Origin: Methylocystis rosea
GTDB lineage: Bacteria; Pseudomonadota; Alphaproteobacteria; Rhizobiales; Beijerinckiaceae
NCBI RefSeq assembly: GCF_003855495.1
Contig: NZ_CP034086.1
Coordinates: forward strand, 2,703,501-2,767,500
Length of the DNA stretch: 64,000 nucleotides
Direction of reading: 5' to 3'
Shown here in pieces: positions 5,178-31,496 of the stretch (the first letter of the stretch is position 1; every line of letters begins with the position of its first letter). Position numbers and translations under genes: made by a program. A model generated the notes under the pieces. That model saw only the letters and a list, made by a program, of their open reading frames with translations, ran no database searches and was not told where the DNA came from.

Positions 5178-5187
5178 AAGGCCGCGC

Positions 5188-5499: not shown

Positions 5500-5506
5500 G
5501 TTTTCG

Positions 5507-6727
5507 TTAGACCGCCTCTATCCGAACCGTCTCCACCACGTGCCGCATATAACCGGCGTGGTTCCATAAGGGCGCCAAGGGCTGCGACTGGCCGGCGCGA
5601 TTGACGGCGCGGGATTTCAAATGATGGACGCCGGGCCGCAGCGACAATTCGGTCCGCCATTCTCGGAAGGAATAGCGGCCAAGATCCTCCCCGAGCCGAG
5701 CCGCGGTCCAGTTCGCGCCGTCGTCGGCTGAGAGCAGCACGGCTTCGATCCCATGGCCGCCGTCGAAGGCGATGCCCCTGACTTCGAAGGCGACATGCGC
5801 CGCGACCTTCGCGTCTTCGGCCGGCCGCGTTATAAAACTACGGACATTGAGCCGCTTGATCGGCCGCGTCGCCCCCTTTGGCGCGCCGGGCGTGGCGCAG
5901 ACGCAGTCATTGTCGGGGATGCGATAGGCGCTCGACATCCAGAAGCCGCTAAAATCGCTGTCGAGCACCTCGATGTCGTTGAGGTGCTTCACCCAATAGG
6001 TCCCGTAGCAGCCGGGAACCACCAGCCGCAACGGGAAGCCGTTGAGCCAGGGCAGGTCTTCGCCATTCATGGCGTAAGCGAGCATCACTTCGCCGTCGCC
6101 GGCATGGCCGAGGTCGAGCGCCTTGACGAAATCCGGCGTCTCCGGCGCCACTGGCGCGTCGAGTCCGTTGAAGGCGACGGACTGAGCGCCCGGCTTCGGG
6201 CCGGCCTTTTCGAGCAGCGTTTTGAGCGCGACGCCGCGCCAGCGGGCGTTGCCCATTGCGCCATGGCCAAATTGTCCGCCGCCGACGCGCGGCTCGACGA
6301 AGCCGCGGCTGTTGCCCGAACATTGATTGACGGCGACGATCTCGACGGGCTCGAAGTCGCGCTTGAGCGCTGCGAGCGAGAGCGACAGCGGCGTCTCGAC
6401 ATGGCCCCGCACCTCGAGGCGAAAGGCTTCCGGATCAATGCTGAGCGGGACGCCGGCGAGGTGATAGCGGACGAAAAAGGCGTCGTTGGGCGTCAGCACG
6501 CCTTCGTCGTAAACGGAGAAAGGGGTTTCGAGTTGAGGCGGCCTGACGGTCTGCTCGATCAGCGCCCGCTTCCCGGGGTAGCGCACGAGGGGCCGGTCGC
6601 CATTGGCGAACCCCAGCCGCGCGCCTTCCGCCGAGAACGCTCCCCGTCCATTAAACGAGGAGAGCGCTGCGAGGCCGAGGCTTGCGCCTCGCAGAAACGA
6701 TCGCCTGCTCGTGGCTCGGGGCATCAT
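5507..6727 (-). CDS. sorA: Sulfite dehydrogenase molybdenum subunit (SorA-like, SUOX family)
   Basis: This is a 406-residue oxidoreductase of the sulfite oxidase fold. It starts with a Tat signal (RRSFLRGASLGLAAL), as expected for a protein exported with its molybdopterin cofactor already bound. The conserved VNQCSGNSRG motif provides the cysteine that ligates molybdenum. The C-terminal Ig-like dimerisation domain is also present (SADDGANWTAARLGEDLG, VHHLKSRAVNRAGQSQP). It should oxidise sulfite to sulfate in the periplasm and pass electrons to the cytochrome encoded just downstream. Its position beside the xox and SoxYZ-like genes suggests a local theme of periplasmic oxidation with sulfur chemistry. 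Confidence 0.87.
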   Translation of the reverse strand: MMPRATSRRSFLRGASLGLAALSSFNGRGAFSAEGARLGFANGDRPLVRYPGKRALIEQTVRPPQLETPFSVYDEGVLTPNDAFFVRYHLAGVPLSIDPEAFRLEVRGHVETPLSLSLAALKRDFEPVEIVAVNQCSGNSRGFVEPRVGGGQFGHGAMGNARWRGVALKTLLEKAGPKPGAQSVAFNGLDAPVAPETPDFVKALDLGHAGDGEVMLAYAMNGEDLPWLNGFPLRLVVPGCYGTYWVKHLNDIEVLDSDFSGFWMSSAYRIPDNDCVCATPGAPKGATRPIKRLNVRSFITRPAEDAKVAAHVAFEVRGIAFDGGHGIEAVLLSADDGANWTAARLGEDLGRYSFREWRTELSLRPGVHHLKSRAVNRAGQSQPLAPLWNHAGYMRHVVETVRIEAV

Positions 6728-17038: not shown

Positions 17039-18904
17039 TCACCGAGGGCGAGCTTTCTCGCTCCACCAGTTCTCCAGGGTGAAGCCATAAGGAAACATCG
17101 GAAAAAGCGGCGTGTGGGCGGGATGGCGGATCGCGGCGCTGTGTGCGCACCAGATGGCGTTCACGTGCTGCAGAGGCACGAAATAGAATCCGGAGAGCAA
17201 TACGCGATCGAGCGCACGCGCCGCCGAAATGCTGTCCGCCTTCATCCGGGACGCGAGCAGAGCGTCGATCGCGGCGTCGAGCGCGGGCGAGGCCGCCCCT
17301 GCGAGATTGAGCGAGTCTTCCTTGTCGAGACTCGCGGCGCTCCACCGGTGCATCTGCTCTTGGCCGGGAACGGCGTACGCCAGCCATTGCCCGATCATCA
17401 TGTCATATTCGAAGCGCTGACGCCGGCGCTGGTATTGGACTTCGTCGTAGACGCGCGGATTGGCTTCGATCCCGATGCGCTTCAGCGCCGCGGCGAAATT
17501 GAGCGCAAGCCGCTCTTCGTCGCGGTCGCGGATCATGATCTCGAAGACGAGAGGAACGCCATTCTTCTCTAGACGCCCATCGACGACGCCATAGCCCGCT
17601 TCGGCGAGAAGCGCTTGCGCGCGCTTCGCGACCGTGCGATCTCGGCCCGAACCGTCATGCTGAACAGGTCGCCAGCGGCCTTCAAGAACATCGTCGCGAA
17701 CGGCGCCGGGAAACTTCGAAAGCAAAGCGCGCTCGGCCGCGCTTGCGGGACGCCCAATCGAAGAATAATCCGATTCGCCGAAGTAGCTTTCCGTGCGGAC
17801 GTATAGTCCGCTGTAGAAATTGGCGTTGATCCAATCGAAGTCATACATCATGGCGATCGCTTCGCGCAGCCGCACGTCACGGAAGATGCCCTTGCGCAGA
17901 TTGAAGACGAAGCCTTCCATTCCCGTTGGGCGTCCGGGCCGCAGGGTTTCTTTCACAATGGCGCCGTTGCGAACGGCGGGAAAATCATAGCCCGTCGACC
18001 AACGTGCGGCGCTCGTCTCCTCGCGATAGTCGAGGAGGCCCGCCTTCAGCGCCTCAAACAGCGCCGCGCCGTCGCGATAATAATCAATGTCGATCTCGTC
18101 GAAATTATAGAGTCCCCGTTGGCTGGGTATGTCGCGGGCCCAATAGTCAGGGTCGCGGCGGAGAACCAGACGCGCGCCAGCTTTCGCTTCCGAGATCACA
18201 TAAGGGCCTGAGCCGAGAGGAATCGTCATATCGAGATCGTCGAAGCGCTCAACTTTCGTGGTTCTCTTCGAAAGAACCGGCATCGCCGCGAGAATGAGCG
18301 GCGCTTCGCGATCCTTCACGCCAGTCAGATCGAAGCGCACGGTATGGTCGTCGAGCGCGACGGCGGACTTCACCAACGCAAAAATCGCGCGATGGTTCGG
18401 CCGACCTTTTGACTTCAGCAATTCAAAGGAAAATAGAACATCCGACGCGAGGATGGGCGTCTTGTCGGAAAAGCGCGCCCGAGGGTCGATGTGAAATGTG
18501 ACGTGTTCGCGCGCCTCGTCGATTTCGACGGATTCGGCGATCAGCGGATAGAAGGAATAGGGTTCGTCCTGCGAACGCACCATTAGACTTTGCAGCACAT
18601 TGCCGATGATGAGTTGCGGCGCGTCCCCAAATCTCGCGTTGAATGGATTGAGACTCGCAAATCCGCCGCGCTGGCCGAGCCGCAGCCTCCCGCCTTTCGG
18701 CGCCTCGGGATTGGCATAGGGAAGATGATCGAAATCCTTGCGCAGCGCCGGGTCGCCATAAAGCGCGAGGCCATGCGTGACGGGACCTTGCAAAGGATTT
18801 TCGGCAAGCGCCGAAACCGGCGGCAGGACCGCGATGACATGGATCAACGCCGCGAGCCGCGCGGCGCCGATCATGCGTCCGACTGCGTGGCCAGCGCGAA
18901 GCAT
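17039..18904 (-). CDS. Periplasmic solute-binding protein, family 5 (YejA-like)
   Basis: This 621-residue exported binding protein starts at 18904 behind a strong AAGGAGG. The signal peptide runs to VSALAENP. The pattern HGLALYGDPALRKDF, LGQRGGFASLNPFN and SDVLFSFELLKS is that of YejA-type oligopeptide or microcin C binding proteins. An intact transporter would need permease and ATPase genes, but none is adjacent, so it may be an orphan or pair with a transporter elsewhere. It lies immediately downstream of the methanobactin receptor gene on the same strand, separated by a hairpin. Whether it is linked to peptide (methanobactin) uptake is an open thought only. Confidence 0.82.
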   Translation of the reverse strand: MLRAGHAVGRMIGAARLAALIHVIAVLPPVSALAENPLQGPVTHGLALYGDPALRKDFDHLPYANPEAPKGGRLRLGQRGGFASLNPFNARFGDAPQLIIGNVLQSLMVRSQDEPYSFYPLIAESVEIDEAREHVTFHIDPRARFSDKTPILASDVLFSFELLKSKGRPNHRAIFALVKSAVALDDHTVRFDLTGVKDREAPLILAAMPVLSKRTTKVERFDDLDMTIPLGSGPYVISEAKAGARLVLRRDPDYWARDIPSQRGLYNFDEIDIDYYRDGAALFEALKAGLLDYREETSAARWSTGYDFPAVRNGAIVKETLRPGRPTGMEGFVFNLRKGIFRDVRLREAIAMMYDFDWINANFYSGLYVRTESYFGESDYSSIGRPASAAERALLSKFPGAVRDDVLEGRWRPVQHDGSGRDRTVAKRAQALLAEAGYGVVDGRLEKNGVPLVFEIMIRDRDEERLALNFAAALKRIGIEANPRVYDEVQYQRRRQRFEYDMMIGQWLAYAVPGQEQMHRWSAASLDKEDSLNLAGAASPALDAAIDALLASRMKADSISAARALDRVLLSGFYFVPLQHVNAIWCAHSAAIRHPAHTPLFPMFPYGFTLENWWSEKARPR

Positions 18905-19015
18905 TGATCGCCTCCTTCGCCAGATCGGCGGACTGAAACTATTCGGCCCGGGCAATCTCCAATTCGAAAAAATTGCTGATCGCGCTTCGCCGATAGGCGC
19001 GCGCCGCGCCTGGCG

Positions 19016-19053: not shown

Positions 19054-21468
19054 TTAGAACTTGAGTTTGATGCCTCCGGCGAAGGCGCGCGGCTGGCCGG
19101 CGAGGATGCCAGCGCCTTGCGCCGTCACCAGGCCGCCTGTCGGCCAGACCAGCGGCGTTTGTATCGGGCCGGCAAGGAGCGTGTTGGCCACGACGAATGC
19201 GCCGGCGACATAGGTTCGATTGAAGACGTTCGAGACCTCGAAAAAGAGCTCGATATTCTTGACATAGAAGTTGTCTATGTCGTGGTTATAGTGCGCGTTA
19301 AGATTGATCAGACTGTAGCTCGGCAGAGTGGTGAAATTGGCGTTGTCGATCGTATAATCGCTTTTGAAAATATATTCGGCGTAAGCGCCGAGACCCGAAA
19401 GGTCGCCGAAGGGCTGATCATATCCAAGACGCATCGTCACAGTATGCGGCGCCACGTTGGGAATTCGGTTGCCGGCGCGATTATATAAGACGGCTCGCCC
19501 CGCGACGGTCCCGAGATCGTCCCAGTAATTGGTGAAGAACTGATTGTTGAACGTATAGGCCGCGATCAGCCGCCATCCGTCGAAGGGCCGCCAATCGGCG
19601 TTGAGTTCGACGCCGCGGTGAAGAGAGGAAGGAATATTTTGCGAATAGCTGACGAGCGCGTTGTTCAATGTCAGAATTTCATTGCGATGCCATTCGTTGA
19701 AACCGGTCACGCTGAAATTGAGCTCAGGGCTCGGGGTCCAATCAATGCCGAGATCGACGCCCATATTGGTCTGAGCCTTCAAAGGATTTTGTCCGATTCC
19801 ATTTCGCGTGCTGGTGAGGAACACGAATGTCGGGCTGCTGTAGCCCGTCGCATAGCGCGCCCGCACCTGCCACTCAGGGTTATAGCGATAGGTGAGCGAC
19901 GCTTCCGGCGCCGTGTTCCAATAATCATTGTCGACGGCGACCTGAGTCGGAAATCTGGGCGCCAGATTGGCGGGGTAGTTATAGGCGGTGCTGACGCCCC
20001 AAACGCGATTCCAGTTGGAGCTGAACCCGATGACGCCCGTCAGGCCCGGCGCGAGCGCAATCTCTTCACGCGCGCGCAGACCGATGTTTGACGTATAGTA
20101 ATCCAACTTGCCGACCTGCGCGCCGATTGCGCCGCTGTACCAGGTATTGGCGATCTGATTGAAGAGCGGATTGGTGGTTTTGGCGTTGCTATAGAAGAAC
20201 TGGAGAAAATGCGTTGCCGGGAAGCCAAACAGATCGGTGTGGCTGGTCACGTCGGTCTGTGCGGTGATGCCCACCGTCGGGCCCCTTAAGGCGACCGGGC
20301 CGCCTTGGCCGCCCGGGCCGACGATCGGCGGCGGCCAGGTTCCACTGATGTTATCGAGATAGTCGTACGTAAATTGCGATCGCCAAGTGGTGGCGTTGTC
20401 GAAGTCATGCTCGAACTGAACGCCGGCGATCTGTCTGAGAGAGTTTTGATGAGTGCCAAGCTGCCAAACGCTTTGGCGCGTGAGCGCGCCGGAGATGCCA
20501 TTGGCCGGCACGTTCAGATTGTTGCACAGGTTGAGATTCAGGGGGACCGCGATGGAGCAGCCATAGTTTTGTTGAAAGGGATTGAGATTGAAGACATTGA
20601 TATTTTCTCGGTTGATGAACTCCGATCTCAAATTGTTGGCGATATATTTCACGATCACACGATCGGTAGGGGTCACGTCCCATCTGCCGAGGAGCTTGGC
20701 TTGTTTGCCTGAGAAAGAATTGCGGGCATAGCCGCTGCTGTTGGCGTCGGAGGCGAAAAACGACAGATCGAAGCCGCCGAGCGTGCTGTCGACCACCGCC
20801 TTTCCGACACGAACGTAATTGTTGACATAGCCGAAGCTGCCAAATTCCGAACCGGTGTGGACGCCGTCGATTTCGGCGCCGGAAAAGGTGCGGAAATTGA
20901 GCGCGCCGCCATAGGCGTAATTGCCGAAGAGCGCCGACGAAGGTCCGCGATAGACGTCGATGGCGGCATAAGAGTGCGGATCGAGCAGGTCGGTGCGGCC
21001 ATTGCCGTCGGCTGTCGTGATCGGGAACCCGTCTTCGTACAGCATGATGTTGCGGATGCCGGTCGGGAACCCGGGGCCGAGACGGTTTCCGGAGCCGCGA
21101 ATCGAAATCAACAGATCACGCGGATTGTTGCCTTGCTGCACAGAGACGCCGGGGCTGTATTCCAACACCCTACGGACATCCGCCAGGGGCGTCGGCTTGA
21201 GGAATTTCGTGTTGACGATCGTCACCGTCTGCCCCGGCGGGTCCCGGTAGATCGGCAGTTTCGCGCGAACGGGATTAAAGCCGGGCGCGATTCCCGCTTC
21301 GCCCGCCGTCGACTCTCTCACAGCCGGAGTCGCGACCGGCGGTGGCCGCCGTGCGGCGCCGATCGTGATCTGCGGAAGCGCCTGCTGCGCGTGCGCGACC
21401 GAGGCAGAGGACAAAAGCGCGAGGGCGCCGAGCGCGACTCCGTGCATCAATTTCGACCGGGAGCTCAT
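19054..21468 (-). CDS. mbnT: MbnT, TonB-dependent receptor for copper-methanobactin
   Basis: This is an 804-residue outer-membrane receptor. After the signal peptide (SSRSKLMHGVALGALALL to AHAQ) comes a candidate TonB box (LPQITIGA). A plug domain follows (TPLADVRRVLEYSPGVSV, DLLISIRGSGNRLG), then a 22-strand-type barrel ending with aromatic KLKF. There is no N-terminal STN signalling domain; the plug begins about 60 residues after the leader. The start at 21468 was preferred over a frame opening at 21513 because the latter lacks a ribosome site and would precede the leader. Its position behind mbnP and mbnH in a methanobactin locus gives the ligand. It should import the copper-loaded peptide using TonB energy. 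Confidence 0.9.
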   Translation of the reverse strand: MSSRSKLMHGVALGALALLSSASVAHAQQALPQITIGAARRPPPVATPAVRESTAGEAGIAPGFNPVRAKLPIYRDPPGQTVTIVNTKFLKPTPLADVRRVLEYSPGVSVQQGNNPRDLLISIRGSGNRLGPGFPTGIRNIMLYEDGFPITTADGNGRTDLLDPHSYAAIDVYRGPSSALFGNYAYGGALNFRTFSGAEIDGVHTGSEFGSFGYVNNYVRVGKAVVDSTLGGFDLSFFASDANSSGYARNSFSGKQAKLLGRWDVTPTDRVIVKYIANNLRSEFINRENINVFNLNPFQQNYGCSIAVPLNLNLCNNLNVPANGISGALTRQSVWQLGTHQNSLRQIAGVQFEHDFDNATTWRSQFTYDYLDNISGTWPPPIVGPGGQGGPVALRGPTVGITAQTDVTSHTDLFGFPATHFLQFFYSNAKTTNPLFNQIANTWYSGAIGAQVGKLDYYTSNIGLRAREEIALAPGLTGVIGFSSNWNRVWGVSTAYNYPANLAPRFPTQVAVDNDYWNTAPEASLTYRYNPEWQVRARYATGYSSPTFVFLTSTRNGIGQNPLKAQTNMGVDLGIDWTPSPELNFSVTGFNEWHRNEILTLNNALVSYSQNIPSSLHRGVELNADWRPFDGWRLIAAYTFNNQFFTNYWDDLGTVAGRAVLYNRAGNRIPNVAPHTVTMRLGYDQPFGDLSGLGAYAEYIFKSDYTIDNANFTTLPSYSLINLNAHYNHDIDNFYVKNIELFFEVSNVFNRTYVAGAFVVANTLLAGPIQTPLVWPTGGLVTAQGAGILAGQPRAFAGGIKLKF

Positions 21469-21496
21469 TTTCTTTGCTTTCCTGATGGGGTGAAAC

Positions 21497-22675
21497 TCAA
21501 TGGGAGGACGCACGCGATGGCCCGCTTGCCGTCGACGCCGGTTTCCAGGGGTCGGCGAAACGTGGAGATGTCAGCAACGACTCGTCGGTCAGCGTTTTCA
21601 GAAAGGCGATCAGATCGCTCTTTTCCTGAGGCGACAGATCGATGGGAACGATCAATGCGCTTTTGTTTGCGTTGTATCGGCCGTCGCCCTTGAGTGGACC
21701 GCTCGTGACATTGCGGCCGCCGGCCGCGTAAATGTCGATCACGTCATCCAGCGTCGCGACGCTGCCGTCATGCATGTAAGGCGCGGTGACAGCGATATTG
21801 CGCAGGCTCGGCGCGCGAAACGCGCCCATCTCGGCGGGATTATGCGTGTTCTCGAAAACGCCGCGATTGGGCTCGGGATAGGCGCCTTTGCCATCGAGAT
21901 CATAGAGGCCGGTGTTGTGAAACGGCGTCTCGATCTCGCGCGTTTTGGCGTGATAGAACTGATCGTCGAAATTCACGCTGCCGTGGCAGTGATGGCACTC
22001 GGCCTTCTCGCCAAAGAAGAGATCCTTGCCGCGCGTCTCTTCTGGAGAGAGCGTCGCCTTGCCTTCAAGATAGAGATCATATTTCGAGGACGCCGAGACG
22101 ACGCCGCGCTCGAAGGCCGAGATCGCCTTGATGACGTTGCCGAAGCTGATCGAGTCCGCCTCGCCGGGAAAGGCGGCCGCGAAGTCGCGGCGATACTCTG
22201 CGTCACTGTCGAAACGCGCGAGGATCTCTTTGCGGTTCTTGTCATTGACGCCCATCTCGATCGGCTCTTCGCCAAAGAGCGGACCTTCCATCTGCCTTTC
22301 CAGAGTGACCATCGCCGGATTCGCCCATGTGAGCGTGGCGCGCCAGGCGGCGTTGGCGATGCTGGGCGAATTGCGCGGCGTATGCTGGCCTGTCGCTCCG
22401 ACGGCGACCGCACGGCCATCGGTAAACGCCAGGCGCTGCTCATGGCAGGAGGCGCAGCTCTCCTTGCCGTTTCCGGACAGACGCGGGTCGTAGAAGAGTT
22501 TGCGCCCAAGCTGAAAACGCGCCTCCGACATTGCATTGTCAGCTGGAACCCGTGGCGGCGGCATGAAGTCGGGCAAAGTCCAGCGCCAGGACTCCGCGCT
22601 TGGGGCGGGGTCGCCTTGCGCCCCGCCCGCGATCAGAGTGGCGGCGAGGAGGAGGATGAGAGCTTCGCGCTTCAT
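21497..22675 (-). CDS. mbnH: MbnH, di-heme cytochrome c peroxidase/MauG-family enzyme
   Basis: This 392-residue periplasmic protein has two c-heme motifs, CASCH at residues 74-78 and CHHCH at 227-231, and the late MHDGS motif of the family. The signal peptide ends near GGAQGDP. In the characterised system MbnH uses a high-valent di-heme state to convert a tryptophan of MbnP to kynurenine, which creates a copper site. The start codon overlaps the mbnP stop (ATGA), so the two are translationally coupled, and mbnT follows 28 bp later. The gene order mbnP-mbnH-mbnT points to a periplasmic copper-handling unit. Confidence 0.93.
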   Translation of the reverse strand: MKREALILLLAATLIAGGAQGDPAPSAESWRWTLPDFMPPPRVPADNAMSEARFQLGRKLFYDPRLSGNGKESCASCHEQRLAFTDGRAVAVGATGQHTPRNSPSIANAAWRATLTWANPAMVTLERQMEGPLFGEEPIEMGVNDKNRKEILARFDSDAEYRRDFAAAFPGEADSISFGNVIKAISAFERGVVSASSKYDLYLEGKATLSPEETRGKDLFFGEKAECHHCHGSVNFDDQFYHAKTREIETPFHNTGLYDLDGKGAYPEPNRGVFENTHNPAEMGAFRAPSLRNIAVTAPYMHDGSVATLDDVIDIYAAGGRNVTSGPLKGDGRYNANKSALIVPIDLSPQEKSDLIAFLKTLTDESLLTSPRFADPWKPASTASGPSRASSH

Positions 22676-23742
22676 TTCGTGACCTCCGCGCGGAAAATCT
22701 TCGTCGACGCGCCGGAGGACTGGCCGGCGTCATTGGCGTCGGGCGCGGTCTCCTTGAGTCGAAGCCCAAGATTTTCGAACATCGGCGTGCATTCCGGATC
22801 GGCCGGCCCGCTCATGCAGCCGGTCGAGAACCCCTGGTCTTTGCCAAGATCGATGCCGGCGAAGAGCGGCTTCAGATCCAGCACGACGCGCTGCTTGGCA
22901 GAATCGAAGGAGGCCAGTTTCACGGGAACGCGATTTGGATTGGCGCAGGAGGTGATTTCGCCTTTCGTCGCGTCGCCGCGACAGCCCGTCGAACCCAGAT
23001 GCAGCATCCAGGTGGAGACGGTGATCGTCCCGTCCGAGTTGACGCGCAGCGGCGCCGTCTTCGGCGCGTCCGCCATCGGCGGCGGGCCGCCGTCGGACTT
23101 GTCGCCCGCGGGCGCGCCGGCGCCATTCGCTGCGTCCGCCGGGCTTTTCGGCTTGGGCGGCGGACGGGTCACGCCGCCCTCGGGATCAACTTCGATCTTT
23201 ATGAATTTGCGGCCGGCCTGCCAATTCCACGTCATCGACTGAAGATCGAGCGGCGCGGGCGCGGTGGCGAAATTCGAGTGGTTGAGAATGACGTCCTTGC
23301 CGTCCTTATCCTGGACGACGCTCGGGACGCCGATGACGAAGCTGAACCCTTTGTAGCGGCCGCGCGGCGCCGATCCCTTGATCGTGTCGTTGATGTCGGC
23401 GCTGCCGACGCATTTGCCCGTCTTGTTTTCAAAATCGAGCAGAGCGAGGTTGGCGTATTGCCAGTCGTTCTGTTCCAGTTCGATGGGGACTTCGTGGCCG
23501 GCGGCGTCGATCAGCGCCGGCGCGGCGATGTAGAACCTGGCGTCGTGGAGCTGCGCCGGCTGCCCCCCGGTTCCGAGCCCTGCGATGTCGCGGCCGCATT
23601 CGACCGGCTGATCGCCCGCCGCAAGCGCAAAGCGTATCGCGATCTGCTGCCTTTCGCCGCCATCGACCTTACCCGCCGCCTGCGCGCCGCCAACGGCTGC
23701 GAGACCGGCGATAACGGCCGTAAAACGAGTGAATGCGCGCAT
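22672..23742 (-). CDS. mbnP: MbnP, periplasmic copper protein modified by MbnH
   Basis: This 356-residue exported protein has a signal peptide ending GAQAAGK, and AGGAGAGGAA precedes the start. The four-Cys pattern of the MbnP family is visible (PVECGRDIAG, TGKCVGSADI, TGCRGDATK, ITSCANPN, then TGCMSGPADPEC). The conserved W-x-W lies at 172-174 (MTWNWQAG). From work on other MbnPs, a tryptophan in this region becomes kynurenine and helps bind copper. A Pro/Gly-rich insertion (about residues 190-225) is unusual. It is the first gene of the mbnPHT unit. Confidence 0.92.
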   Translation of the reverse strand: MRAFTRFTAVIAGLAAVGGAQAAGKVDGGERQQIAIRFALAAGDQPVECGRDIAGLGTGGQPAQLHDARFYIAAPALIDAAGHEVPIELEQNDWQYANLALLDFENKTGKCVGSADINDTIKGSAPRGRYKGFSFVIGVPSVVQDKDGKDVILNHSNFATAPAPLDLQSMTWNWQAGRKFIKIEVDPEGGVTRPPPKPKSPADAANGAGAPAGDKSDGGPPPMADAPKTAPLRVNSDGTITVSTWMLHLGSTGCRGDATKGEITSCANPNRVPVKLASFDSAKQRVVLDLKPLFAGIDLGKDQGFSTGCMSGPADPECTPMFENLGLRLKETAPDANDAGQSSGASTKIFRAEVTK

Positions 23743-23786
23743 GATTCCTCTCCTGTCAGCACGATTTTTGAGATGCTTCTTGGCTG

Positions 23787-23805
23787 CACGCGTTCGCGAC
23801 GCGTG
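23787..23805 (-). promoter_or_regulatory. Palindrome upstream of mbnP
   Basis: CACGCGT (23787-23793) and ACGCGTG (23799-23805) form a perfect inverted repeat around TCGCG, 45 bp upstream of the mbnP start. It could be an operator or a leader hairpin. No regulator can be named. Confidence 0.35.
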
Positions 23806-23902
23806 TCGGCGGCGGCGCGTCAGAGGCGCGCGCGAAAATCCAACGCGAGGGAAATGGCGATGAGGGGTCGAAGACCCGGCAGCCGACCGCTAACGCGCTC
23901 TC

Positions 23903-24316
23903 TTAGGAGAGAAGCGACGGGGGTGCGCGAGAAAGCCTGTTTCTGGGCCACTGGGTGGTCGGCGGCGCGAGATCGCGCTCTTCCGGCCAAAGAGGAGGAG
24001 CCTCAGACGAGGGCGCCAGCACGAGGACGACGGCGGACAGGAGAACCTTTGCTCCGAGGTCGTCGCTTCGGTCGCTTAGAAAGCAAGCCATGCAGTGCAT
24101 GTGCTGAACATGCGGGCCCTTGCCGTCGCCATTGGCTTGATCGGCGCAAAGCTCGTTCGCCATCGCGACGGGAGAGCTTAGGAACGCGCCGAAATCGCCG
24201 CCAAGGCGTCCGTGAGAAACAATAAGACCCAAAGCTTGCTGAAACAGCAGACAAGCGACAGCGGCCGCCACAATCGGACGCATGAACCGCCGCATTTTTT
24301 TCTTGTCTTGCCGCAT
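23903..24316 (-). CDS. DUF2946-like exported Cys/His protein, methanobactin locus
   Basis: This is a 137-residue protein starting MRQDKKKMRRFMRPIVA with a signal anchor. A metal-binding-looking cluster NELC...HVQHMHCMACF follows, then a second hydrophobic stretch (LLSAVVLVLAP) and a terminal SRAPPS. This layout resembles DUF2946 proteins, which I recall next to TonB-dependent copper receptors in other proteobacteria. It lies 160 bp upstream of mbnP on the same strand and could be cotranscribed with mbnPHT. A TTGACA sits at 24346-24351 (minus strand) but with a poor -10. Copper binding or sensing is inference. Confidence 0.68.
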   Translation of the reverse strand: MRQDKKKMRRFMRPIVAAAVACLLFQQALGLIVSHGRLGGDFGAFLSSPVAMANELCADQANGDGKGPHVQHMHCMACFLSDRSDDLGAKVLLSAVVLVLAPSSEAPPLWPEERDLAPPTTQWPRNRLSRAPPSLLS

Positions 24317-24715
24317 AGCGAATTCTGAGTGCACGAGGATTAACTTGTCAACGACGGTTAGCGCCCAAATTTTGCAATAATTTAAACTGTTGCGCTGCAG
24401 CCACACTTGGTCTTTGCAATTTCGCTCTGTCATTCAATTGACGGGCGCGAAGAAGCCGTTCGCCCCGACATCACTCCAAATGGCGCGCGCAACGGCCGGC
24501 GCTGAGCGCGCGGAGTCTTTAGTCCGTAATGAATATCCAGTGTCGGCTTGAAACAATGAAGCAGGCTCGCCGACCGTTGCCGTTTGTCAACGCGTCTTCG
24601 CCTATCGGTCCCTCGTCGTTCCGCCATGCGCACGTCGTATAAGGAGTTTCATATTGCCGCAAAATTGTTTCGCGCCTATGATCTACGCCCCGTAGGCAAT
24701 GGTTGGCGGCAATCC
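24317..24715. other. Divergent intergenic region of the methanobactin locus
   Basis: About 400 bp separate the two divergent DUF2946-like genes. The left part is unusually AT-rich for this genome (24350-24390, including AATAATTTAAAC) and probably holds promoters. No convincing gene or operator could be assigned. Confidence 0.5.
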
Positions 24716-25051
24716 ATGCTCGTTCGGCTCATTCTTTTCGTTGCGATCTTGCTGCAAGTCGCTGGCGTTTCGACTGTCGCCGCGCGCGCTCAATCTCATT
24801 CTTTGTCGTTCCGGCCCGTCGTCTGCAAAAGCGATGCTGTTCCCGCGGCGCCTCACGCGCCGGGCGACCACGACGGCTCTTGCTCGGACTGTATCGCGTG
24901 CTGCGACGCTCAGCCGCAGATCCTATGCGTCTATGATCAGGTTGCGCGCCTGTCCTTTCCAACGGCGCGACTCAGCGTTCTCGCTTTTCCAATCCTTCCC
25001 GTTTCCCGATCGCGGTCGGCGACTCCGCCAGCGCGCGCCTCCCCCGTCTAA
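24716..25051 (+). CDS. Second DUF2946-like exported cysteine-rich protein
   Basis: This 111-residue protein starts MLVRLILFVAILLQVAG, a signal peptide. It carries a dense cysteine motif, HDGSCSDCIACCDAQPQ, plus VVCKSD and ILCVYD. The C-terminus ends ATPPARASPV, like the ends of DUF2946 proteins. It lies about 140 bp upstream of the sigma factor gene on the same strand, and is divergent from the similar gene at 23903-24316. Five to six cysteines in a periplasmic protein of a copper-uptake locus suggest metal handling, which is unproven. Confidence 0.65.
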   Translation: MLVRLILFVAILLQVAGVSTVAARAQSHSLSFRPVVCKSDAVPAAPHAPGDHDGSCSDCIACCDAQPQILCVYDQVARLSFPTARLSVLAFPILPVSRSRSATPPARASPV

Positions 25052-25190
25052 AGACTCGGCCATACATCCGCGCGTTCGGAAGCAAATCCGTCCGCGGATC
25101 GAAACCACGCATCCCTGAAGGCCATGAGGGCGCTTGGGGTTGATGCGTTTTGGATAATCGGCGCGCTTGGAGACAAGCGGGGAGGCGCTG

Positions 25191-26024
25191 ATGCAGAAGT
25201 CCCATGAGACGATCGACCGACTGTTTAGAAGCCACCATCGCGATCTGATAACGCGGGCGCGCCGCGTGATCGGCTCGGGAGACGCCGAAGACCTGGTCCA
25301 GGAAGCCTATCTCAAAATGCTGGAAAGCGACCGTGGCGAACTGATTTCGAATGCGCGCGGCTATGTGTCGAAGATGACGTGCACGCTCGCGATCGACAAT
25401 CTTCGGAGGCAAAGAACGCATGCCAGAGCGCTGGCCGAAGACGGCGCATGGTTCCAGTCGCCCGCTCGAGACACGCAAATCACGTCGGCCCTCGACGCAT
25501 TCGGCCTGGCGCGGGACGTTCAAGCGGCTCTGAGGCAATTGCCGCGATGTTGTCGTCAGATATTCTTCATGAGCCGGATCCTGGGCTTCAGCCATGCTGA
25601 AATCGCGCAGGAAATCGGCGTTTCCTTGAGAACGGTCAATCGCAGCCTGGGTCGGGCGCTCGAACATTTCGATCGCGCCTTCGAGGTCGCGCCTTCGAGC
25701 GTGCCGATGGAGACGCAGAGCGTTAAGCCGAAGGCCGCGCCAAGCGATGCCTTGATCGAAGCTGGCGCGCCGCGCCTTCGAAATGCGCCAAACCTCAAAA
25801 TCTCGACGGCTCGAAAAAATTCTCGTCCCAAGCTGTCCGATTTTTGCGGCCTCGCTCGTCATACCATTCGGGTCCCGCGTTCTGCGGAGCCCGTCTGGTC
25901 TCTCCAGACGAAATCAAAACAGGAGGCCTTCATGACCATCCGTATCGCCAAGCGCATCACCCTCAATGTCATTGGCCGCGCCAGCGCCCGCTGCGCGTCG
26001 ACCTGCGCCGCCACCAACGGCTAA
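25191..26024 (+). CDS. mbnI: ECF sigma factor (MbnI-like), frame open into mbnA
   Basis: Residues 1-165 form an ECF (FecI-like) sigma factor. Region 2 has LFRSHHRDLITRARR, DAEDLVQEAYLKML and NARGYVSKM; region 4 has LRQLPRCCRQIFFMSRI and HAEIAQEIGVSLRTVNRSL. ATG 25191 follows GGGGAGG. Such proteins normally end near residue 170, but here no stop occurs. An 82-residue tail with no recognisable domain leads in frame into the mbnA start at codon 248, and the only stop is that of mbnA at 26024. Codon bias in the tail fades after about 25740, so part of it is probably not under coding selection. No anti-sigma gene (FecR/MbnR) is next to it. It should drive mbn transcription under copper starvation. 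Confidence 0.8.
   Translation: MQKSHETIDRLFRSHHRDLITRARRVIGSGDAEDLVQEAYLKMLESDRGELISNARGYVSKMTCTLAIDNLRRQRTHARALAEDGAWFQSPARDTQITSALDAFGLARDVQAALRQLPRCCRQIFFMSRILGFSHAEIAQEIGVSLRTVNRSLGRALEHFDRAFEVAPSSVPMETQSVKPKAAPSDALIEAGAPRLRNAPNLKISTARKNSRPKLSDFCGLARHTIRVPRSAEPVWSLQTKSKQEAFMTIRIAKRITLNVIGRASARCASTCAATNG
25892..25910 (+). promoter_or_regulatory. Hairpin in the mbnA leader
   Basis: CGTCTGG (25892-25898) and CCAGACG (25904-25910) form a 7-bp perfect stem around TCTCT, 10 bases before the AGGAGG of mbnA. No T-run follows, so it is more likely to stabilise the short mbnA message or mark its 5' end than to terminate. Confidence 0.5.
25932..26024 (+). CDS. mbnA: MbnA, methanobactin precursor peptide
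   Basis: This is a 30-residue ribosomal peptide with a perfect AGGAGG (25921-25926) five bases upstream. The leader MTIRIAKRITLNVIGRASA is basic and carries the IGRA motif seen in other MbnA leaders. The core is RCASTCAATNG, with Cys21 and Cys25 as the residues converted by MbnBC into a heterocycle plus thioamide. It matches the SB2-type methanobactin as I remember it. In that compound the two modified cysteines bind one copper ion, and a threonine is sulfated. mbnB follows 79 bp later. It shares frame and stop codon with the upstream sigma-factor frame. Confidence 0.96.
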   Translation: MTIRIAKRITLNVIGRASARCASTCAATNG

Positions 26025-26103
26025 GGACGGTTTGTTTGCGCCGTTGGCCCCCGGCCAGCGGCGCAAGCGACGTTCGGCGCATCAAGACGAAGGCGGCAAA
26101 GAG

Positions 26104-26931
26104 ATGCGACTTGGCTTCAATTTCACGCTCGGCGACACCTATGACATGGCTCAGAGGCTGATCGGCGAAGGGCACATCGATTATTGCGAATTTCTTATCG
26201 ACAATTTTTTCTGCGTCGATCCAGACGAATTGGCCAAGGCGTTCGATTGTCCAGTCGGGTTGCACATTATGTATTCGAAGTTTCTCGAAGCCGATCGGCC
26301 GACGCTCGTCGATTTCGCCGCTCGGCTTCGAGATTACATCGACGCGCTGAACCCGATTTACGTCTCCGACCATATTCTGCGCTTTTCTCACGAGGGGCGC
26401 GCTTTCTTTCACTTAGGCGAAATCGATTATTCCGCCGAATATGAATCCGTGCGCGACAAGGTCGTGCAATGGCAGGAGATCGTCGGACAGCGCATTCATT
26501 TTGAGAATTACCCGTCCATCATGGACGGCGGGGTGGAAGCGCCCGCTTTCTTCGAACGCCTTATGAAGGAAACAGGGGCGGGCGTGCTGTTCGACGCCTC
26601 CAACGCCGTTTGCGCCAATCGCAACTGCGGGACGCCGTTCGAAGCCTGGCGCAACGTCATCGCCGCGGCCCAGCACTTCCACGTCGCCGGCTACCGGCAG
26701 TCATTGATCGAGCCCTTCATTTCGCTCGACACCCATGCCGAAGCGCTGGCGCCGGACACGCTGGCCTTCCTTCAGAATTATCGATCGGTCTTCGACAAGC
26801 CGGGCGCAACGATGACCTATGAGCGCGACGACGAGATCGAATTTGACGCTATCGTCGCCGATCTAAAGGTGTTGCGGGACCTGTTCGGCCAACCGGAAGA
26901 AAGGCGTCATGACCTTGCTCTCACTGCCTAG
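26104..26931 (+). CDS. mbnB: MbnB, iron-dependent methanobactin-modifying enzyme (DUF692)
   Basis: This 275-residue TIM-barrel protein of the DUF692 family begins MRLGFNFTLGDTYDMAQRL. Likely iron ligands are in YVSDHILRFS, IHFENYPS, LFDASNAVC and HFHVAGYRQ. With MbnC it performs the oxygen-dependent four-electron oxidation of MbnA cysteines to oxazolone (or related ring) and thioamide groups. The start at 26104 was chosen over an upstream frame opening at 25966 because family proteins begin at this conserved segment. Its 3' end overlaps mbnC by 23 bp, so expression is coupled. Confidence 0.96.
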   Translation: MRLGFNFTLGDTYDMAQRLIGEGHIDYCEFLIDNFFCVDPDELAKAFDCPVGLHIMYSKFLEADRPTLVDFAARLRDYIDALNPIYVSDHILRFSHEGRAFFHLGEIDYSAEYESVRDKVVQWQEIVGQRIHFENYPSIMDGGVEAPAFFERLMKETGAGVLFDASNAVCANRNCGTPFEAWRNVIAAAQHFHVAGYRQSLIEPFISLDTHAEALAPDTLAFLQNYRSVFDKPGATMTYERDDEIEFDAIVADLKVLRDLFGQPEERRHDLALTA

Positions 26932-27493
26932 TCGGACTGATCGCGACCTTTACCCCGCGCTGATGTCGCCGGAGCTGAACGCAAAATATCCTCCCGATCA
27001 TAAGGCGTTCGTTCGGATCGACGTGAGCCTGCGCATCTTTTGGCACACGCTCTTCGACATTTGCCCGGAGCTCTTGGAACTTTCCGGTCCGGACGGCATG
27101 TCGATTTTCCGGCCGTTCATGGCCTGGGCTGGAGAGAAGAAACTCGCTTTCGACTGGTCCTATTATCTTTGGGTCTATGTTTGGCTGCGCGAGGAATCTC
27201 CATTTAAAGACCGGCTGTTGGCGGACGACAAATATCTCCGCTCGATCATGGCGGCGTCCGCCGCGCGGTGGGCGATCCTCGATCGCGGTCGAAGCCGCGG
27301 GATTGTTATCGGATGCGCCGACACGACGGATCTCGTCATCGGCTGGAAATGCCGTAGCGTTCGCCTCGGACGAGAGATCGAGCTTGTCGAACCCGAGGAG
27401 CCGTTGCCGGCGCCTCCTGAGCTGTTCGGCTACTTTACTTTGCCGGGCTTTGAGCTCGACATATTTCCGGGGTGGCAGAGCCTCGCGCGATGA
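26909..27493 (+). CDS. mbnC: MbnC, methanobactin-modifying partner protein
   Basis: This 194-residue protein matches the MbnC family. It has RIDVSLRIFWHTLFDICPE, then LSGPDGMSIFRPFMAWAG, WVYVWLREESPF and a C-terminal PPELFGYFTLPGFELD. MbnC forms a complex with MbnB and holds the MbnA leader. It begins inside the end of mbnB and ends in an ATGA overlap with mbnM. No second function is apparent. Confidence 0.93.
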   Translation: MTLLSLPSRTDRDLYPALMSPELNAKYPPDHKAFVRIDVSLRIFWHTLFDICPELLELSGPDGMSIFRPFMAWAGEKKLAFDWSYYLWVYVWLREESPFKDRLLADDKYLRSIMAASAARWAILDRGRSRGIVIGCADTTDLVIGWKCRSVRLGREIELVEPEEPLPAPPELFGYFTLPGFELDIFPGWQSLAR

Positions 27494-28791
27494 CGAGCGC
27501 GCCGTTGTGGCGCGGATACTGGTTCCTGTTGGCCAGCACGTCCGCAGCCGCCTTCATCATGCAGATCGACCTCGCCATGGTTGCGCGATTGGGCGGCCGC
27601 GCGTCGGGCGCCTACGCGATTCTGATGCGCATCACGCTGCTCGATGTCGCGGTCACCATCGCTTCCGCGGCCGTCGCCGCCATTGCGCTCGGCCATGCGC
27701 AAAAGAATGGCGAGACGGCTGATGCGATCGAAAAGACCTGCGCGCTCTCCCTCGCGCTTGGCGTCGCGACAGCGATTTTCGGCTTCTTCGCCTATCCGAT
27801 TTTCCTTGACGCCCTGATGGGCGACGCCGCCGCCGCTCCCTATATCGGCGCCCCGATTCTTTGGCTCGTCGCCGGCGCGCCGTTCCGCGTTCTTTCAAAC
27901 ACGCAAGGATTCCTGTTGCACGCGCTTGGACGCGGCGGCTCGGTTCTCACGTGGAAGCTCGCCGAAATTCCAGCGAAAGCCGGGGCCAACGTCCTGTTCA
28001 TGCAGACGTTCGGATTGGGTTTCGCCGGCTGCTTTCTCGCGGGCTGCGTCGTCGCCGTCGCCTCGTCTTTTTGGTTATGGAGTCGGCTGCAAACGCATGG
28101 CGCGCGCAAATTGCGTCTTCCCGAACTCGCCTTTGCGCGCTCCTTTATGAGCGGAACCTTCTGGGAAGCGCTGCGGGTGCTGTCGCCGCAGGCGGCGATG
28201 CTCTTCTCGCTGACGCTCTTCTCACTGCCCTGGCATTACGCCGCGAACGGTCAACGCCTCGACTCCTACGCGGCCGCGCAGACCTTCATGCTGTTCATTC
28301 TTGGTCCGCTCATTACGCTGATGCGCTATCTCGCCATTTACCTTCCCAAGCAATCTACCGGGGATTGGACGTCAGCCCTTGCGCCGGTGATGCGCGTCGG
28401 CGCGCCAATCGCGCTGACGGCCGCCGTCTTGCTGCTATTGGGGCGCGATTGGATCGGGGACGCTCTGTACCGCCAACACGGAGCCTGGTGGTCCGTTTTC
28501 ATCGCCTGCTTGGCGCTTTCCATACCCATCCGATTCATCGGAAGCATCGTCCGAGGACTAACGCTCGCTCGGAGCGCCTTCGCAGAGCTGACCTCCGTCG
28601 ATGTGCTTGCGCAGTGGCTCATCGCGCCGCTGTTCATTCTGTTCGGCCTCTCCGTTAACCGTCCGGAGATCGCCTATCAATCGCTGATCTGGCCTGAAAT
28701 CGTCGCTGTTTTCTTGCTCTGGCGCGGGCTTCGATCCGCGCCAGAGGAGCCGATGGCCGTTTCGTTGCCCTCTGAAGGACATGTGCAATGA
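27490..28791 (+). CDS. mbnM: MbnM, MATE-family methanobactin exporter
   Basis: This is a 433-residue inner-membrane transporter with about 12 hydrophobic segments and the MATE fold. It begins MTSAPLWRGYWFLLASTSAAAF, with the conserved QIDLAMVARLGG in the first helix pair. ATG 27490 overlaps the mbnC stop, and the 3' end overlaps mbnF, so the genes are tightly coupled. Its place in the operon points to export of finished methanobactin to the periplasm. A start at 27472 would add six residues. Confidence 0.92.
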   Translation: MTSAPLWRGYWFLLASTSAAAFIMQIDLAMVARLGGRASGAYAILMRITLLDVAVTIASAAVAAIALGHAQKNGETADAIEKTCALSLALGVATAIFGFFAYPIFLDALMGDAAAAPYIGAPILWLVAGAPFRVLSNTQGFLLHALGRGGSVLTWKLAEIPAKAGANVLFMQTFGLGFAGCFLAGCVVAVASSFWLWSRLQTHGARKLRLPELAFARSFMSGTFWEALRVLSPQAAMLFSLTLFSLPWHYAANGQRLDSYAAAQTFMLFILGPLITLMRYLAIYLPKQSTGDWTSALAPVMRVGAPIALTAAVLLLLGRDWIGDALYRQHGAWWSVFIACLALSIPIRFIGSIVRGLTLARSAFAELTSVDVLAQWLIAPLFILFGLSVNRPEIAYQSLIWPEIVAVFLLWRGLRSAPEEPMAVSLPSEGHVQ

Positions 28792-30434
28792 GCGTGGAGC
28801 GAGTCCCGGTTCTGATCGTCGGCGCCGGCTATGCCGGTCTGTCTGCGGCGACGCTGCTCGCATGGCGCGGCGTCCCCTGCCGTCTCGTCGAGCGACGCGC
28901 GTCAACGTCGCGACTGCCGAAAGCGCATGGGATCAACCGCCGCAGCATGGAGGTTCTGCGCGTCGTCCCTGGCTTGGAGGATGCGCTGTTTGCGGCAAGC
29001 CGCACTGGCGCCAACGAATCCACGCTCATCATCGCGGAGTCGGTCACGAGCCCGCCGATCGAAACGCTCGTCACCAAGACCTCGCTCGACGCAACGCCCG
29101 TGTCTCCCAGCAGAATATGCACCGCCGGCCAGGATCGCGTCGAACCCGTGCTGCTGCGCTTCGCCCGCGAGAACGGCGCCGACGTTCGATTCTCGACGAC
29201 GCTAGAGCGCTTCTCGCAGCGGGATGACGGCGTCGAAGCGATCCTGCGCGATGAAGCGTCGGGACAAGAGACGACGGTTTTTGCCGACTACATAATCGCG
29301 GCGGACGGCGCCGGCGGCACGATCCGCGATGTCGGCGGCGTCAAGATGGAAGGCCCCGGCGTTCTCGCCGATACGATTTCGGTGCTGTTCGAGGCCGATC
29401 TCGACGCCATCCTGCCAGGCGGGGGATTTGCGCTCTATTATCTGCGCAATCCGGCGTTCAGCGGCGCCTTCGTCACCTGCGACGAGCCCAATCACGGCCA
29501 GATCAACATCGAATATGATTCCTCCCGCGATCAGGCGGCCGATTTCGATGAAGAGCGATGCGAAGAGCTCGTTCGCCAATCTCTTGGCGTCCCCGATCTT
29601 GCAGTAAAGATTCTCGACATTCGACCCTGGCAGATGGCCGCTCTCCTCGCCGATCGCATGTCTTTTGGCCGCGTATTCCTTGCGGGCGACTGCGCCCATA
29701 TCACGCCGCCCGTCGGCGGGCTCGGCGGACAGACGGCGATTCAGGACGCCGCCGACCTGGCGTGGAAACTTGCGCTCGTCGTCAAGGGCGAAGCTGCGCC
29801 CACGCTGCTCGACAGCTATGCGATCGAGCGTAGGCCCGTCGCGCGGATCGCGATCGCGCGGTCCATCGCCAATTATGTCGAGCGCCTCCTGCCCGATCGT
29901 CAGGACATCCGCATTCGGGAAGACGAATACGGCCTTCTCGAAACATCTATGGGCTATCGCTATCGCTCTGACGCAATCATCGCTGATGAATTCGACGACG
30001 GCGCATGCGTCGAAGATCCTCTTCGCCCGAGCGGCGCGCCGGGAACGCGTCTGGCGCATGTCTGGTTGCGGCGCGGCGATGAGACGATCTCCTCTCACGA
30101 TCTGATCGGCCGCGATTTCATGCTCTTTACCGGCCCCGATGGCGGCGACTGGATTGAAGCGGCGCGGCGCATCGCCCTGCGCTCGAAAGCGCCGCTCGGC
30201 GTCTGCCGCCTCGGCTTCGACGTTGACGATCCCGAAGGGCTGTTTCTGCCGCGCCTGCGCGTTTCGCCTGAAGGCGCGCTCCTCGTGCGTCCCGACGGCT
30301 GCATCGCCTGGCGTTCGCGCGGCGGAAACCCCGATCCGCTCGCGACGCTCGAAGCGAGTTTTGCGCGCGTGCGCGGTTTCGACACGCGCCAATCCAGGGG
30401 CCGTCACGCGGCGACGCTCGCCGACGCAAGCTAG
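28788..30434 (+). CDS. mbnF: MbnF, FAD-dependent monooxygenase of methanobactin tailoring
   Basis: This 548-residue flavoprotein belongs to the aromatic-hydroxylase class. The dinucleotide fold GAGYAG is at residues 12-17, the middle motif is YIIAADGAGGTIR, and the FAD-ribityl motif is FLAGDCAHITPPVGGLGG. Its C-terminal thioredoxin-like part is reduced. In SB2-type operons MbnF is thought to convert the first oxazolone to a six-membered or imidazolone ring, which gives a different copper ligand from the OB3b compound. It overlaps mbnM by four bases and precedes mbnS by 51 bp. Confidence 0.9.
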   Translation: MSVERVPVLIVGAGYAGLSAATLLAWRGVPCRLVERRASTSRLPKAHGINRRSMEVLRVVPGLEDALFAASRTGANESTLIIAESVTSPPIETLVTKTSLDATPVSPSRICTAGQDRVEPVLLRFARENGADVRFSTTLERFSQRDDGVEAILRDEASGQETTVFADYIIAADGAGGTIRDVGGVKMEGPGVLADTISVLFEADLDAILPGGGFALYYLRNPAFSGAFVTCDEPNHGQINIEYDSSRDQAADFDEERCEELVRQSLGVPDLAVKILDIRPWQMAALLADRMSFGRVFLAGDCAHITPPVGGLGGQTAIQDAADLAWKLALVVKGEAAPTLLDSYAIERRPVARIAIARSIANYVERLLPDRQDIRIREDEYGLLETSMGYRYRSDAIIADEFDDGACVEDPLRPSGAPGTRLAHVWLRRGDETISSHDLIGRDFMLFTGPDGGDWIEAARRIALRSKAPLGVCRLGFDVDDPEGLFLPRLRVSPEGALLVRPDGCIAWRSRGGNPDPLATLEASFARVRGFDTRQSRGRHAATLADAS

Positions 30435-30485
30435 GCGCAACCGCCTCATCCTGCTCCAAAAGTCTTCGCAAAGGAGAGTGGTCGA

Positions 30486-31496
30486 ATGTCCATGCTTTCG
30501 CCGGAACTCCACGCGCCCTTCCGGTCAGAACCGATCCTGGCGGTTGATCCGAAGCGGCTCGAAACGATCCAGGCCCCCTACCAGGACTTCAACCGGCTGT
30601 CGCGGGCTAGCGGCGCCTTGGAGACCTTGCCCCTTCGGGCCAAGCGTCAATTCCGCTCCTATTATTTTTTCAATCCGCCAAAATGGCGGGTCTGGGCGCG
30701 TTCGCTCGGCTCCAGCGAACGCATGGCGCCGTCCTTCGCATCGATTGGCGCGGTGCGCTCCGGCACGTCATTCCTCTCCTCTTACATTTTTCAGCATCCG
30801 CATGTCGTGCTGCCGCTGTCGAAGGAAATCTCCTTCACGGAGACGATGCGCGAACTCATGGCGCATTTCCCGACGCTCGCGACGCAAAGGGCGGCGGAGC
30901 GGCGCAACGGCGGCGCGATCACCGGCTACTGCACGCCGGTGATGCCCAATCCCCTTTGGATATTTCTGGCGCAGTCGATGTTTCCAGACATGCGGATCAT
31001 CTGCGTTCTGCGCGATCCGGTGGCGCGCACCTTTTCGCACTGGCGATGGGATCAGAAGCGGTTCATCAGCCGCAAGTCGCAGGACCCGCATTGGAAGGGC
31101 TTTCCGGACCTTCAAACCTTGATCGAAGCCGAAAAGGCGATGATACGCGGCGGCGGGATGGAGCCGCACGCATTTTCCGGCGCGCGCGCCGGCTATTTGC
31201 GCCACAGCATCTACGCGCCCTTTCTGCGCCTGCTGTTCGAGAAATTCGGCAGAGACCGCGTTTTCATCGTCGATGCGGCGGAGTTTTTTCGCGACCCGCG
31301 ATCGACGGCGAAGGAGATTTACGGGTTTCTCGGCCTGCCCCAAGTCGAGCCGCTGGTGATCGAGGAGCAAAATCCGGGTCCCCCCGGAACGCTCGAGGAC
31401 GACCTTCGGGAGAATTTGGCCGAGTTCTTCCGGCCCTACAATGAAGAACTCTACGCTCTGCTGGGGAGGGATTTCGGCTGGGGCGCCAGCCGATAA
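30486..31496 (+). CDS. mbnS: MbnS, methanobactin sulfotransferase
   Basis: This 336-residue PAPS-dependent sulfotransferase has the 5'-phosphosulfate loop IGAVRSGTSFLSS (residues 91-97 central). The 3'-phosphate motif region is ICVLRDPVARTFSHW, with GRDRVFIVDAAEFFRDP further on. It should transfer sulfate to the threonine of the core peptide. AAGGAGAG precedes the start. It is the last gene of the operon that has a clear methanobactin role; no aminotransferase gene (mbnN) is present. Confidence 0.92.
   Translation: MSMLSPELHAPFRSEPILAVDPKRLETIQAPYQDFNRLSRASGALETLPLRAKRQFRSYYFFNPPKWRVWARSLGSSERMAPSFASIGAVRSGTSFLSSYIFQHPHVVLPLSKEISFTETMRELMAHFPTLATQRAAERRNGGAITGYCTPVMPNPLWIFLAQSMFPDMRIICVLRDPVARTFSHWRWDQKRFISRKSQDPHWKGFPDLQTLIEAEKAMIRGGGMEPHAFSGARAGYLRHSIYAPFLRLLFEKFGRDRVFIVDAAEFFRDPRSTAKEIYGFLGLPQVEPLVIEEQNPGPPGTLEDDLRENLAEFFRPYNEELYALLGRDFGWGASR

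Follow-up and report, generated by a model that had tools for sequence, protein, structure and literature searches.

Gene content of the methanobactin locus

Here, we analysed a stretch of 64,000 nucleotides from Methylocystis rosea (contig NZ_CP034086.1, positions 2,703,501 to 2,767,500), called the window in the following. Judged by sequence comparison, it very probably holds a group II locus for methanobactin, the copper scavenger of this methane-eating bacterium, on the chromosome of a Methylocystis species; the precursor peptide would be made free from its own gene, mbnA, and a sigma-factor frame is kept open into that gene. On one strand, the locus carries mbnE, a TonB-dependent receptor gene, mbnH, mbnP and a DUF2946 gene (a), and on the other strand a DUF2946-like gene (b), the gene of an extracytoplasmic function (ECF) sigma factor, mbnB-C-M-F-S and moaA (Table 1). 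Neighbouring genes overlap at mbnB/mbnC, mbnC/mbnM and mbnM/mbnF, and the mbnP-mbnH-receptor group occupies the opposite strand.

Table 1. Genes and sequence features of the methanobactin locus, in window coordinates
Feature	Position	Strand	Evidence
mbnE, periplasmic binding protein (SBP_bac_5)	17039..18955	-	best solved match 5icq, Methylocystis parvus MbnE, 797 bits; PF00496; start uncertain
TonB-dependent receptor, mbnT by position	19054..21513	-	PF00593, PF07715; no N-terminal STN
mbnH, di-haem MauG-like enzyme	21497..22675	-	TIGR04039 480.6 bits (cut-off 362.85)
mbnP, copper-binding partner of MbnH	22672..23742	-	TIGR04052 264.9 bits (cut-off 140)
DUF2946 gene a	23903..24433	-	PF11162 25.0 bits (cut-off 23.7); start uncertain
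DUF2946-like gene b, Cys-rich, directly 5' of the sigma gene	about 24716..25051	+	PF11162 18.8 bits, below cut-off 23.7
ECF sigma factor, frame continuing via a linker of about 85 codons into MbnA (277 aa)	25191..26024	+	NF040705
putative ECF-type mbnA promoter GTCYGATT-N14-CGTC, inside the sigma frame	25835..25860	+	position-conserved block
possible 7-bp hairpin CGTCTGG-N5-CCAGACG, presumed mbnA 5' leader	25892..25910	+	alignment pairing
mbnA ribosome-binding site AGGAGG	25921..25926	+	sequence; 5 bases 5' of ATG
mbnA, 30-aa precursor MTIRIAKRITLNVIGRASARCASTCAATNG	25932..26024	+	TIGR04071 55.1 bits (cut-off 24); Pfam Methanobactin PF25751 57.3 (cut-off 27)
mbnB	26104..26931	+	TIGR04159 453.9 bits (cut-off 325); best solved matches MbnB chains such as 7fc0
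mbnC	26909..27493	+	TIGR04160 285.9 bits (cut-off 185)
mbnM, MATE exporter	27472..28791	+	NF045578 520.8 bits (cut-off 285); start uncertain (GTG 27472 or later ATG)
mbnF, FAD monooxygenase	28788..30434	+	NF045577 902.9 bits (cut-off 800); best solved match 8fhj
mbnS, sulfotransferase	30486..31496	+	PF00685 36.0 bits, PF13469 44.4 bits, both above cut-off; no NCBIfam match

A sequence-only reading had described here a complete, SB2-type methanobactin locus with an easily missed precursor gene. The proposed 30-residue MbnA behind an AGGAGG is not a chance open reading frame (ORF), because its TIGR04071 and Pfam Methanobactin scores exceed the cut-offs, and it is letter for letter the 30-residue precursor published for M. 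rosea SV97 (PMC3621798). MbnB and MbnC, whose failure in a profile search had been named as a refuting outcome, both passed the curated cut-offs, and so did MbnM, MbnF and MbnS of the same downstream series, the last to the level of sulfotransferase only. In the proposed divergent mbnP-mbnH-mbnT group, mbnP and mbnH were recovered by profile on the opposite strand, but mbnT rests on position: general TonB-receptor models match, no MbnT model passed, and a 98% identical counterpart lies at the same place in another M. rosea genome (L025). The range given was too short, and mbnE and the two DUF2946-like genes of the conserved block were omitted. Likewise, the peptide gene is only partly 'easily missed': it has been reported as the tail of a sigma ORF of about 277 residues, and the model NF040705 exists.

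We assign the locus to the known group II (Methylocystis) methanobactin operons, of which it is one more copy; its precursor is of the CASTCA type, and it adds one strain to a known family. In the operons of M. rosea SV97 and Methylocystis sp. SC2, MbnA is merged with an ECF sigma ORF as in the window, and these operons share with it the sulfotransferase, MbnF and a periplasmic binding protein beside the receptor (PMC3621798). The label 'SB2-type' was fair, as the 28-residue MbnA peptide of Methylocystis sp. SB2 equals residues 3-30 of the window MbnA and the SB2 MbnF structure 8fhj matches the window MbnF over its whole length with few differences (PMC10167746). Because of these differences in MbnF, the window is not the SB2 sequence itself.

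The merged sigma-MbnA frame and the region before mbnA

The precursor is indeed hidden in the frame of the sigma factor, as the earlier reading had it: from 25191 (or 25167) onwards, no stop codon interrupts this frame before that of MbnA at 26024. It matches the NCBIfam model NF040705, 'methanobactin precursor domain-containing sigma factor', with 491.1 bits over positions 1-272 of 272 (threshold 350); NF040705 is a naming model and silent on function. The merger was noted in 2013 in SC2 and M. rosea, and peptide cleavage or sigma activity was then called unclear (PMC3621798). The available passages of that paper contain no test of frame retention and neither the block nor the hairpin described below, all of which are covered here. 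Among the papers found by literature searches, of which only passages of PMC3621798, PMC9601215, PMC12452194, PMC12403871, PMC7716213 and PMC10167746 were consulted, we saw none other that treats the merged frame.

Is the merged frame retained among relatives? Among 19 DNA loci that could be read and have a sigma gene before mbnA, 18 keep it open (the 19 being 17, including the broken L015, plus L074 and L075); outside this set are L010, which starts 32 bases before mbnB, and L021-L024 and L039, which have no merged sigma gene. At the protein level, MbnA stands at the end of 48 of the 52 closest homologues, the exceptions being P0042, P0043, P0044 and P0045. These are the first 52 of 65 homologues, the other 13 being distant sigma factors (31-36% identical or less over about half of the query). 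Three of the 48 are fragments under 240 residues, and P0045, on a contig of 1035 bases, was counted as lacking MbnA though it may be cut by the contig end. P0067-P0070 were kept outside all counts; the MbnA end is found in P0068 and P0069, not in P0067 and P0070. Methylocystis sp. H62 (L015/L034) still has mbnA, B, C, M, F and S, but its merged frame is interrupted by a single-base difference in sigma region 4, which may reflect natural loss or an error in sequencing.

Insertions and deletions in the linker respect the frame. In the main clade of 15 loci, all seven distinct linker gaps are multiples of three, versus one of ten gaps in the 80-base spacer between mbnA and mbnB (Fisher P=4e-4). 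L015 has no fused coding sequence and is absent from the 16-row codon alignment; its one-base gap falls in sigma region 4 and outside the linker and is not among the seven. The protein linkers show 13 lengths in 42 readable cases, which means at least 12 in-frame changes versus two net frameshifts (P=8e-5, assuming that two thirds of insertions and deletions shift the frame). In P0006, the residues just before MbnA appear by eye to be locally in another frame, which is then restored. Nonsense changes in the merged frame are likewise depleted, with none observed versus 7.7 expected on the tree (P=0.0005) or 4.6 expected from a minimum count that ignores the tree (P=0.009); the sigma domains, as a positive control, show none versus 6.6 expected by minimum count. 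The divergent L019/L020 clade was excluded from these counts and from the substitution rates below. It also carries the fusion, and its linker differs from that of the main clade by gaps of 38, 30, 2 and 1 bases, which preserve the frame only when taken together.

Within the final 100 bases 5' of mbnA lie a block resembling an ECF promoter, a ribosome site and, possibly, a hairpin. TA.C and GGG follow the block GTCYGATT-N14-CGTC, and 18 loci show no variation in these two or in GATT and CGTC; we take CGTC to be an ECF-type -10 element. Of 23 loci, 18 have the block at a constant position ahead of mbnA; those without it are L010 (contig end) and L022, L023, L024 and L039 (other MbnA types). The block lies 98 bases before the ATG in L019/L020, one more than the 97 of the main clade, and is therefore read there in another phase, while sigma and MbnA share one frame in both. 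L021 also carries the block before mbnA, yet there the gene immediately 5' is no sigma gene. Within the genome (4.21 Mb, three contigs), the block has one exact match; with two mismatches allowed, 17 matches occur in the window versus 14.1 expected.

Substitution rates point to a constraint on this tail as DNA. The ratio of nonsynonymous to synonymous rates (dN/dS) amounts to 0.15 and 0.17 for the sigma domains, against 0.71 for the variable linker and 0.63 for the 40 tail codons. Synonymous divergence (dS) falls to 0.20 in these 40 codons, which contain the block, versus 0.42-0.56 in the sigma domains and neighbouring linker segments (0.31 in the MbnA leader and 0.15 in its core), and differences at third positions exceed those at first and second positions 1.6 times in the tail and about 2.5 to 4 times in the sigma domains. 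Because both dS and third-position differences fall there, the tail is conserved largely as DNA. Of 17 loci, 14 retain the ribosome site GGAGG, the exceptions being L015, L019 and L020, and codon 244 encodes Q, G or R with bases that keep the site purine-rich, a pattern which speaks for internal initiation at mbnA.

Between block and ribosome site, a 7-bp stem is found in all three lineages with differing sequences, those of L019, L020 and L021 lying at about the same site as that of the main clade. In the hairpin alignment, 100% of cells are paired across 12 distinct rows, and the three variants are each compatible with G-U pairing; alignment A3 holds no pair changed on both sides. RNAalifold on alignment A1 did not recover the hairpin, and one of 12 pairs was changed on both sides. 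As a weak statistic, a 7-bp stem arose in 555 (L001), 149 (L019) and 164 (L021) of 2000 shuffles; fold z-scores of six sequences ranged from -1.3 to -3.7. The minimum-energy fold of the window sequence pairs the ribosome site, and the hairpin is seen in the centroid only. The hairpin region gave no Rfam match. As a genome-wide operator, the palindrome CGTCTGG-N5-CCAGACG found no support, with one exact site and four one-mismatch sites versus two for the reversed control; in the window, it has 10 matches with up to three mismatches versus 4.2 expected, a number reached by one of 100 shuffles.

Apparent selection for the merged frame and competing explanations

The merged arrangement looks kept by selection, and we infer two products from the sequence comparison, a free MbnA and a sigma-MbnA fusion: frame retention favours a real fusion protein, and the embedded promoter-like block and ribosome site favour free MbnA. 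The merger called unclear in 2013 thereby becomes a sharp, testable case.

Several observations weigh against this reading. With one mismatch, the block has 51 further matches in the genome versus 7 in all for the reversed control, and because of this excess the block pattern alone is not specific; as regards a wider regulon, the extra copies could stem from composition or include some real sites. The linker of P0023 appears by eye to be locally frameshifted and then restored, and adding its two shifts weakens the protein-level test to about 8e-4 by hand arithmetic; restored shifts as in P0023 and P0006 could be due to errors in sequencing or agree with selection for the frame. In the variable linker by itself, the nonsense expectation is only 3.1 on the tree (P=0.04) and 1.2 by minimum count (P=0.28), which is weak; the remaining depletion stems from the tail (3.3 on the tree, P=0.03; 2.2 by minimum count, P=0.10), which is weak by itself too and is also held as DNA, and recombination around mbnA may distort the tree-based count. 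The frame is broken in P0042, P0043 and H62 (P0044/L015), and the sigma gene is split in apparently one contig (P0070/P0047), so that the fusion is dispensable at least there, unless these are sequencing errors. The naming of mbnT by position only belongs to the same list.

The merged frame might instead be a by-product, in which the stop of the sigma gene was lost, the tail is tolerated and only free MbnA matters. We regard this as possible, if somewhat on the improbable side: the tail is conserved largely as DNA, the linker residues drift nearly freely, the other forward frames of the 15 main-clade linkers also contain only 0-2 stops, and naturally broken frames occur, but a tolerated tail does not account for the contrast in gaps between linker and spacer, for the excess of in-frame length changes in the proteins with or without P0023, for the depletion of nonsense changes, or for the persistence of the fusion in L019/L020, where the other forward frames hold 1 to 5 stops. 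An unlikely alternative is that the frame is kept for translational coupling, with ribosomes that end the sigma gene passing on to mbnA. The protein letters of P0042 and P0043 suggest a sigma ORF that ends at the mbnA start (judged from the protein only), and the A of the mbnA ATG is followed by TGA in 17 of 17 DNA loci, so that a +1 frame would end there. If frames 0 and +1 were equally good for coupling, however, finding two or fewer shifted among 14 lineages would have a probability of P=0.006 (about 0.04 by hand arithmetic with the P0023 shifts added), and mbnA has a promoter-like block and a ribosome site of its own.

It is highly improbable that the conserved block is part of a domain of the sigma protein and not a promoter. 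The string LSDFCGLARHTIRVPRSAEPVW that it encodes hardly varies across the main clade, and some purifying selection acts on the tail residues (N/S 0.61 of expectation). Nearly the same DNA is, however, read in another phase as a different peptide in L019/L020, the block also precedes mbnA in L021 with its different upstream gene, and synonymous divergence is under half of the level of the sigma domains.

Following the reading of a free MbnA together with a retained fusion, copper starvation would most likely activate transcription at the block, which may be the mbnA promoter and be read by this very sigma factor. Free MbnA would then be translated from its own AGGAGG, both signals being part of the sigma gene's 3' end. 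According to the pathway known from the literature, whose families are present here, MbnBC would convert two cysteines of the MbnA core to copper-binding heterocycles, MbnF and MbnS would modify the peptide further (Thr sulfation), MbnM would export methanobactin, and copper-methanobactin would re-enter via MbnT and MbnE with the participation of MbnP and MbnH. With the sigma frame additionally kept open, a sigma-MbnA fusion would probably also be made.

Regulation, relatives and neighbouring genes

The receptor lacks a FecA-like signalling domain, and no MbnR lies beside it. No STN domain was found in the receptor or anywhere in the genome, and no FecR-type anti-sigma gene lies beside the sigma gene; the single FecR-domain match is far off (G000:C1:1646063), and other kinds of anti-sigma factor were not searched. 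Control by FecI-FecR-FecA as in Methylosinus is not supported here, given the absent STN and the distant FecR. The SB2 receptor likewise lacks the signalling domain, and mbnT of SB2 is stated to have no associated sigma or anti-sigma genes (PMC9601215).

The window sigma factor resembles CorE and OrbS in having a C-terminal extension and no adjoining FecR-type anti-sigma gene. CorE is a copper-dependent ECF sigma factor with a Cys-bearing C-terminal part (PMC3107203), and OrbS is one that governs a metallophore, with a Cys-bearing C-terminal part and reported without an anti-sigma factor (PMC9023288). In both, the metal sensor consists of cysteines of the sigma factor's own C-terminal region, whereas the window sigma tail ends in the precursor of a ribosomally synthesized and post-translationally modified peptide. 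We speculate by analogy, as a rather doubtful possibility, that the sigma tail might be a copper sensor modified by MbnBC, with copper bound to the modified tail, or MbnBC itself, switching a sigma factor that reads the embedded mbnA promoter. If so, one reading frame would be sensor, regulator and product precursor, free MbnA would come from the internal start, and a natural product would be tied to its own regulator in a new way. The roughly 110 residues after sigma region 4, MbnA included, are predicted to be disordered; an AlphaFold2 model of the fused protein gave modest confidence for the sigma blocks (pLDDT, the predicted local distance difference test, of 52-85) and values below 50 for residues 166-277, which makes it uninformative on docking.

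Methylosinus sp. Sm6 has a stand-alone sigma factor (P0072, 192 residues, 41% identical) on a different contig from its mbn locus. By eye, it is preceded by a short Cys-rich ORF resembling DUF2946b (L087, reverse complement, 5169-5507 and 5726-6205), and no other match to window mbn proteins lies within 13 kb. This arrangement suggests an older DUF2946-sigma pair beside which mbnABC may have arrived later. In the genome of L021 (G007), the best sigma relative is 33% identical and lies about 18 kb from the mbn genes, beside an mbnH-like gene (by eye).

Of 101 genomes searched, 21, with that of the window among them, have MbnB relatives (E <= 1e-40), all 21 being of one genus, and named matches at 83-96% identity belong to Methylocystis strains or to metagenome-assembled genomes of that family or class. 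The full window gene order recurs in L025 (M. rosea), L026, L030, L032 and L033, and in L029 up to the contig limit (mbnE partial); L027, L028, L031, L036 and L037 begin too late to display it. M. rosea L025 represents a separate strain with 13 compared proteins 90-98% identical. At the place of the window mbnE, L025, L026, L030 and L033 carry mbnE over 97-100% of its length, and for Methylocystis the 2013 survey places genes of periplasmic binding proteins downstream of the receptors (PMC3621798). In L034, the receptor lies farther away. In the Sn-Cys-like clade (L038, L077, L078), mbnP and mbnH share, unlike in the window, the strand of the other mbn genes, and within 18-21 kb neither a receptor nor mbnE nor DUF2946 was matched at E <= 1e-4. 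In L035, mbnM is placed 3' of mbnS and not between mbnC and mbnF. One genome (G009) holds two mbnB copies with different precursors on contigs C1 and C3 (L022, L024), the second on a 205-kb contig.

A gene for adenylylsulfate (APS) kinase had no match within the window, and the literature searched yielded no paper joining methanobactin with this enzyme. Such a gene does lie between mbnF and mbnS in L028, L030, L031 and L032, the copy of L030 (14328-15005) matching PF01583 with 208.8 bits, and 3' of mbnS in two further genomes (L038/L078 and L077; tblastn). This proximity to mbnS is as expected if MbnS needs 3'-phosphoadenosine 5'-phosphosulfate (PAPS).

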